A stretch of 34,349 nt of DNA from a virus: IMG/VR virus record IMGVR_UViG_3300022072_000064, positions 1 to 34,349 of that record. One strand, written 5' to 3'. Below, one piece after another: positions 27,771 through 30,069 of this stretch. Each line of letters opens with the position of its first letter. Position 1 is the first letter of the stretch. Made by a program: the position numbers and the translations under genes. A model generated the notes under the pieces. The model did not search any database, was not told the DNA's origin, and was given only the letters and a program-made list of their open reading frames with translations.

Positions 27771-27789
27771 TTTAAAGTTAATAAATCTT
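27771..27789. repeat. 19-bp direct repeat, copy A
   Basis: TTTAAAGTTAATAAATCTT, identical to 28060-28078. The copies flank the 90-aa gene at 27778-28050, with this one spanning its stop codon. Confidence 0.8.
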
Positions 27790-28050
27790 ATAATTTAAAG
27801 ACGAATATAATCCATGAGATAGTCTTTGTATTTTTTTACTTAAAACTAATTTTTTTAATATATCCGACAAAGTTCTTTCTTTTATAAACATAGTCTTAGC
27901 TTTTTCCAAAACCTCCTTCCTTTCAAGTATTCTTTCTTCCTCATTTATCCATTTTACTAACTCTTTTATTCTTACATCGTTGTATGAGTTTTCAAATGAC
28001 CAATCAGAGGTAGCATAAGTTAGTTTGTTGTAATTTTTTTTAATTCCCAT
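27778..28050 (-). CDS. 90-aa winged-helix-like hypothetical protein
   Basis: A basic 90-aa protein. The C-terminal half (FIKERTLSDILKKLVLSKKI then QRLSHGLYSSL, residues about 55-84) resembles the recognition helix and beta wing of a winged-helix domain, with the SHGLY turn as the wing. The N-terminal half is a charged helix (VKWINEEERILERKEVLEKA). DNA binding is a plausible role but inferred only from this pattern. The gene is flanked by two identical 19-base repeats and lies five bases after the SF2 helicase gene. Confidence 0.6.
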   Translation of the reverse strand: MGIKKNYNKLTYATSDWSFENSYNDVRIKELVKWINEEERILERKEVLEKAKTMFIKERTLSDILKKLVLSKKIQRLSHGLYSSLNYKIY

Positions 28051-29298: not shown

Positions 29299-29853
29299 TT
29301 ACCAACTAAAAGAAAATACTAATCCTCCATTTTCTTGAAGCAAAGAATTATTTGTTATAATACCTCGCTTATATAATTCTGAATTTCCATAGAATTTATT
29401 TTTCTGATCTTCTCTATAGTCAATCCATAATCTGTAACCAACATACACCTTATTTATAGTGTTAAATCTAGACAACCTTATATTAAATCCTATTACACTC
29501 CCAAACATTGGGTATGTTGCTTTGGTGTTTTTATGCTTCCTAGTGATATAGCCTGCTCTAAAACCACCATAGTATCTTATAACATCGTTATTAAACATAT
29601 TAAAATTTAATCCTAAAGTAGCAACCACATCACTATATCTAACTTCTAATCCATCATAAATTGAAAATGCTGCTGAAGCATATCCCCAATGCATAACTTT
29701 TTCGATTTCATATCCCGTTTGGAATCCTTGGTCTGTAAGTGTTGGGTCAACCCATACATTTAATTGTGTCCAATCTTTATCAATAAACGTTACAACCTGA
29801 GCACTACAAAACGTAGTTAATAACAAGAATACTATTACTGCTTTGTTTTTCAT
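29299..29853 (-). CDS. nested outer-membrane beta-barrel protein (internal start)
   Basis: The internal ATG at 29851-29853 gives a 184-aa protein with n-region KNK, hydrophobic core AVIVFLLLTTF and signal peptidase I site after CSA, leaving an N-terminal Gln as is common in Flavobacteriia. There is no lipobox match (TTFC). The mature part alternates polar and aromatic residues in short strands (LEVRYSDVVATLGLNF, VIRYYGGFRAGYITRK, KVYVGYRLWIDYRED) and ends with GGLVFSFSW, the terminal aromatic expected for BAM insertion. This fits a small OmpW/OmpA-size barrel in the host outer membrane. Purine-rich GAAGAA precedes the ATG. A role in blocking superinfection or altering the surface is inference. 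Confidence 0.65.
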   Translation of the reverse strand: MKNKAVIVFLLLTTFCSAQVVTFIDKDWTQLNVWVDPTLTDQGFQTGYEIEKVMHWGYASAAFSIYDGLEVRYSDVVATLGLNFNMFNNDVIRYYGGFRAGYITRKHKNTKATYPMFGSVIGFNIRLSRFNTINKVYVGYRLWIDYREDQKNKFYGNSELYKRGIITNNSLLQENGGLVFSFSW

Positions 29854-30069
29854 TTCTTCAAAATGTTCTTTTAACAAAAACCTTATGTAATTTCCTGCTA
29901 CTCTTTCATCTATACCTAGCCTATTACCAATAGCTGAATCGCTATTATCTACAAGACCATCTTTATCTCTCCACTCTTCAAGGTATGGACCAAAAAACAT
30001 TTTTCTTATCTCATCTTTTAAGTGATTTGTTAAATAATATCTTGGACCTCTATATATTTTTTCTCTCAT
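29299..30069 (-). CDS. helix-turn-helix-like segment fused in frame to secreted outer-membrane beta-barrel
   Basis: One open frame of 256 codons contains two unlike halves. Residues 1-72 are cytosolic in character, with a helix-turn-helix-like stretch (NSDSAIGNRLGIDERVAGNY then IRFLLKEHFEE). Residue 73 is a methionine that begins a textbook signal peptide (MKNKAVIVFLLLTTFCSA before Gln), followed by a beta-barrel-like sequence ending in the aromatic pattern FSFSW. A signal peptide in mid-protein cannot work as such, so two products are likely: a small DNA-binding-type protein whose stop codon is missing, or an upstream extension, plus an independent outer-membrane protein started at 29853. 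The gene lies three bases from the primase gene. A real 256-aa fusion is possible but less likely. Confidence 0.6.
   Translation of the reverse strand: MREKIYRGPRYYLTNHLKDEIRKMFFGPYLEEWRDKDGLVDNSDSAIGNRLGIDERVAGNYIRFLLKEHFEEMKNKAVIVFLLLTTFCSAQVVTFIDKDWTQLNVWVDPTLTDQGFQTGYEIEKVMHWGYASAAFSIYDGLEVRYSDVVATLGLNFNMFNNDVIRYYGGFRAGYITRKHKNTKATYPMFGSVIGFNIRLSRFNTINKVYVGYRLWIDYREDQKNKFYGNSELYKRGIITNNSLLQENGGLVFSFSW

Follow-up and report, generated by a model that had tools for sequence, protein, structure and literature searches.

The second half of one open reading frame (ORF) in a phage replication operon belongs, in the best-supported reading of its homologues, to a small protein family of flavobacteria and their phages whose members are exported, probably to the outer membrane. 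The ORF lies in a 34,349-bp virus record, referred to here in its full length as the window. We consider it likely that a small phage-borne beta-barrel gene with its own start at codon 73 (M73) was joined in frame to an upstream helical ORF by a lost stop codon. The initial annotation had described a single frame in which about 72 residues of cytosolic type are followed by a methionine, a signal peptide and a barrel-like sequence with an aromatic pattern at its end, and this layout is indeed present in the ORF (Table 1).

Table 1. Coordinates of the ORF, its parts, its neighbours and related loci (window positions unless a locus or genome is named).
Feature	Position	Strand	Basis or remark
Fused ORF, 256 codons + stop	29299..30069	-	Between primase and helicase genes; start ATG 30067-30069, stop 29299-29301 (reading frame check)
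Start codon M1, upstream	30067..30069	-	2 nt past primase stop codon
First half, 72 codons, predicted three-helix (HTH-like)	29854..30069	-	Coding score, structure model
Internal ATG M73 (CAT on +)	29851..29853	-	Corresponds to the start codon in each of the ten homologues
Signal peptide MKNKAVIVFLLLTTFCSA, probable cleavage before Q91	29800..29853	-	Sequence, homologue alignment, rough rule
Second half, 184 aa, predicted small outer-membrane beta-barrel, C-terminal W	29299..29853	-	Homologues, model, fold search
Upstream neighbour, primase-like replication protein, 805 aa	30072..32489	-	phrog_28855, BT4734-like_N, PriCT_1
Downstream neighbour, SNF2-type helicase, 413 aa	28056..29297	-	1 nt after fused ORF
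Slot signal-peptide proteins, 154-156 aa	L005:4547-5011, L006:7868-8335, L008:7462-7932, L009:5232-5696, L051:7672-8136		Separately encoded
Homologue-bearing genomes, one Flavobacteriaceae genus	G306, G842, G843, G844, G847, G848		Chromosomal

Ten distinct homologues of the second half were found: in six genomes of one Flavobacteriaceae genus (55–58% identity), in one other Flavobacteriaceae genome (45%) and in three phage or prophage copies (26–30%). The alignments span the full length with the bacterial members and most of the length with the phage members. Each of the ten begins where M73 lies in the alignment and has an in-frame stop 1–6 codons upstream of that start; in the window, the nearest such stop lies 77 codons upstream. 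In five of the six genomes of the one genus, a TAA or TAG stop immediately precedes the ATG; the window has GAA there. Homologues encoding one continuous protein were sought and none was found, all ten being stand-alone. Judged by these alignments, the second half is normally a gene of its own that starts at the equivalent of M73.

A search of 399 Flavobacteriaceae genomes with the second half returned homologues at 56, 45 and 31% identity, and within the one genus 6 of 12 genomes carried one. A profile of the second-half homologues led to L133 and L134 in viral contigs; L133 is identical in sequence to the 31% genome match and has a phage-like neighbourhood. When 395 genomes of the class were searched with a second-half profile, nothing was found at E ≤ 1e-4, and because even G051 itself was missed, this result shows only that the family is sparse. 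Plasmids yielded no match, and exact peptide patterns of the second half and of the whole ORF found no close relatives in viral or genome contigs. Three weak 55-residue matches to the second half, in larger ORFs (353–374 aa) of 50 related phage records, were unconvincing, and whole-ORF matches to Oenococcus and Vibrio phages were dismissed (E = 7).

As the bacterial relatives are closer to the second half than the phage members are, the window copy may have come from or through a flavobacterial chromosome, a suggestion drawn from identities and not from a rooted tree. On the chromosomes of the one Flavobacteriaceae genus, the barrel homologue lies between a LytTR regulator gene and a DUF3440/PAPS-reductase gene. 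Both neighbours were seen in L215, L217, L218 and L219/L130, and L214 and L216 were covered partly. In G306 a ParB_N gene comes next (L130:11848–12459), and we take its PAPS-reductase/ParB_N pair to resemble IbrA/IbrB.

The methionine that had been proposed to head a signal peptide does so: codon 73 opens MKNKAVIVFLLLTTFCSAQ, which has the standard signal-peptide layout. A rough signal-peptide rule is passed by M73 alone among the six methionines of the ORF and by 14 of 2670 internal methionines in relatives, these 14 representing essentially one other protein family. The first version of the rule, without Cys at −3, rejected M73 and was widened once the sequence had been seen. More weight therefore rests on the homologues, whose ordinary N-terminal signal peptides, ending in AQ or SQ, align with the same stretch. 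Beyond the signal peptide, alternating aromatic residues are abundant and the terminal residue is W, where relatives have F or W. The second half scores as coding in its own frame (0.25 bits per codon, versus −0.90 and −1.40 in the other frames).

An AlphaFold2 model of the second half built with three sequences was all-beta, with seven strands where an antiparallel OmpX/OmpA-like barrel has eight, and had low confidence (mean pLDDT 45.7). Almost all Foldseek matches of this low-confidence model were outer-membrane barrels, those to small barrels being led by NspA, OmpX, OprF and OmpA, with a best E of 0.03 and none at E ≤ 0.001. No Pfam barrel model (OMP_b-brl, OmpX/OmpA-like) reached its gathering score for the window protein, and some relatives matched at E = 0.002–0.006 only, below the cut-off. 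Combined with the C-terminal aromatic residue and the signal peptide, the fold and Pfam matches point to a small outer-membrane barrel as the likely fold. The barrel proposed by the initial annotation agrees with the homologues, the all-beta model and the terminal W, although the low confidence of the model leaves the fold short of proof.

The first half (codons 1–72) is charged and soluble-looking, and its coding score of 0.40 bits per codon (the two alternative frames score −1.35 and −1.26) was matched by none of 2000 mononucleotide shuffles. A single-sequence AlphaFold2 model placed helices at residues 15–30, 44–51 and 55–70, with a core pLDDT of ~75–84 and a pTM of 0.51. No relatives were found in Pfam, PHROGs, PDB, phage records, viral contigs, the 50 related phages, the 399 Flavobacteriaceae genomes or the slot region of any retrieved locus, and exact peptide patterns found no close relatives in viral or genome contigs. 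Searches for a helix-turn-helix (HTH) family or sequence match found none, and Foldseek gave no fold match at E ≤ 0.001, its weak top matches including DosR, LexA and DeoR domains. The description 'HTH-like' is fair for a three-helix model, but no significant structure or family match accompanies it. The model is consistent with a short helical protein that possibly binds DNA.

The ORF had also been placed in a replication operon, correctly, as it lies between the primase and helicase genes. Further genes of this operon encode an exonuclease, a single-strand binding protein and a Sak annealing protein. Viral contigs of ~60 kb commonly carry relatives of the primase. In genome records the hosts go under a variety of bin names, often those of metagenome bins, and we therefore claim the host only as Bacteroidota, probably flavobacteria-like.

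In the closest phages (L003, L004 and L135), whose helicases are 92–93% and primases 79–82% identical to those of the window, the primase stop and the helicase ATG are 3 nt apart, the ORF is absent and both neighbours are intact. With only 3 nt at the junction of these phages, the whole 771-bp ORF is extra in the window, as a private insertion. The same junction in ~75 other relatives is occupied by acidic proteins of 75–90 aa, by small HTH proteins, by a methyltransferase-like protein or by an N-terminally extended helicase. From these comparisons (loci L003–L082 and L135–L213), the primase-helicase junction is a variable cargo slot in a widespread group of aquatic Bacteroidota phages. Exported cargo in the slot is not unique to the window, because five loci encode separate predicted signal-peptide proteins there (Table 1). 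This family is unrelated in sequence to the window barrel, and its L005 member, the one scanned, had no Pfam match above cut-off. Downstream of the helicase, a 90-aa gene (27778–28050, minus strand) also varies among close relatives, as it is 95% identical in L135 and undetected in L003, L004 and L137 (tblastn, E ≤ 1e-8).

Use of M73 as a start was considered with a position matrix built from the starts of relatives. The M73 context falls in the 30th–32nd percentile of real starts and the 96th of internal ATGs, and its accessibility in the 38th percentile. As M24, M126 and M188 score as well, context alone decides nothing, and it is the homologues that decide. An A at −3 and −6 is reported to help initiation in Flavobacterium johnsoniae (Baez et al., PMC6847099), and M73 has neither. 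The context of the helicase ATG (29297) is very poor, in the 1st percentile of real starts, which suggests that starts in this operon may depend on coupling to the preceding gene. If so, barrel production should change once the stop that precedes M73 is gone.

In this reading the halves would be two independent cargo coding units that happen to share an open frame and were inserted at the primase-helicase junction of a Bacteroidota phage. The barrel would most likely still be made from M73, exported by its signal peptide and lodged in the outer membrane of the host during infection, where it would perhaps alter the cell surface. Ribosomes starting at M1 would continue into the barrel and yield a fusion with a buried signal peptide. 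Of the earlier proposal that a small gene lost its stop and runs into an outer-membrane protein gene, the part on the second half is supported by the ten stand-alone homologues and their stops just upstream; for the first half, of which no relative was found, separateness is deduced from the second half alone. An envelope protein in a replication operon makes superinfection exclusion or surface remodelling, as had been suggested, a reasonable guess.

The lost separator could be a real mutation in the phage or a single-base assembly error, as a single change at the junction is enough to separate the halves. That the fusion is an assembly or sequencing error, with real genes that are separate and probably overlap by a few bases, is possible and clearly less probable than the lost stop in general, of which it is a subset, so the two confidences overlap. 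The source record is a metagenomic contig, the second-half homologues all stand alone, and genes in relatives meet most often in a 4-nt overlap (156/707 junctions), which a one-base difference in length would produce here. However, eight or more further genes that the window shares with L003, L004 or L135 are unbroken in one frame, and the junction is free of long homopolymers. A search of viral contigs found no second copy of the junction between the halves. The intact shared genes near the slot are also a counter-point to the lost-stop explanation as a whole: they speak against an assembly of low overall quality, and the fusion may therefore be real and might be put to use.

A true dual-start gene would use the fusion in this way. 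Initiation at M1 would give a cytosolic HTH-barrel fusion, acting as a regulator or decoy, and initiation at M73 the exported barrel, with the shared frame coupling their amounts. No stop interrupts the frame, codon use marks both halves as coding, both starts are in usable contexts, and the intact neighbours mean that the sequence is probably sound. We nevertheless regard this as unlikely. The barrel and the first half share a frame in none of the ~75 slot relatives and none of the ten barrel homologues, none of which is open upstream. The first half has no homologue or significant DNA-binding match among those found, and the ORF is known from a single copy, in which selection is not measurable. 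The fuller version, in which a functional dual-start gene with a cytosolic DNA-binding fusion and an exported barrel links regulation in the replication operon to an altered host surface, is more doubtful still. A single continuous protein, in which codons 1–72 would be a true N-terminal domain and the hydrophobic segment an uncleaved signal anchor, fits the operon well (2 nt from the primase stop and 1 nt from the helicase ATG) but is very improbable, as the bacterial and phage homologues have no N-terminal extension and this segment aligns with their ordinary N-terminal signal peptides.

ORF35 of Flavobacterium phage MaF61 (PQ858689.1, XYH49338.1, hypothetical protein) is a homologue of the second half that matches it starting at the first methionine of ORF35 and has a signal peptide (26–27% identity, E = 2e-3 in the whole phage collection), but in the deposited annotation it is a stand-alone 167-aa gene that lacks the first half. 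An unrelated 93-aa gene ends 17 nt upstream of it; the neighbouring MaF61 genes were considered as possible paralogues and rejected as unrelated. The chromosomal gene of the G306 type shares its start and the C-terminal SW with the second half, and differs in standing alone, with a stop just before its ATG and with LytTR, PAPS-reductase-like and ParB_N genes adjoining. The window protein is like the NspA, OmpX and OmpA-domain barrels in size, signal peptide, C-terminal aromatic residue and beta strands. Membership is not claimed, as it falls below the Pfam cut-offs and its fold matches, of which NspA is the best among small barrels, are not significant. Lom of phage lambda is a phage-borne small outer-membrane barrel. 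Lambda C/Nu3 is a phage gene with an in-frame second start, and SPP1 reportedly has another. Like the window ORF, such genes have two candidate starts in one frame and a shared C-terminus; unlike it, their long form works and is conserved in relatives, whereas the long form in the window is unique to one contig.

The fusion looks more like two joined cargo genes than a new kind of two-in-one protein, and the joining was probably incidental. It is mainly a warning, as gene callers would start at M1 and so hide the signal peptide. The second half defines a small family of apparently exported, beta-rich proteins spread over Flavobacteriaceae chromosomes, prophages and unrelated phages. The primase-helicase slot, which seems to have taken exported proteins repeatedly, is a place to seek early, surface-acting phage functions in Bacteroidota.
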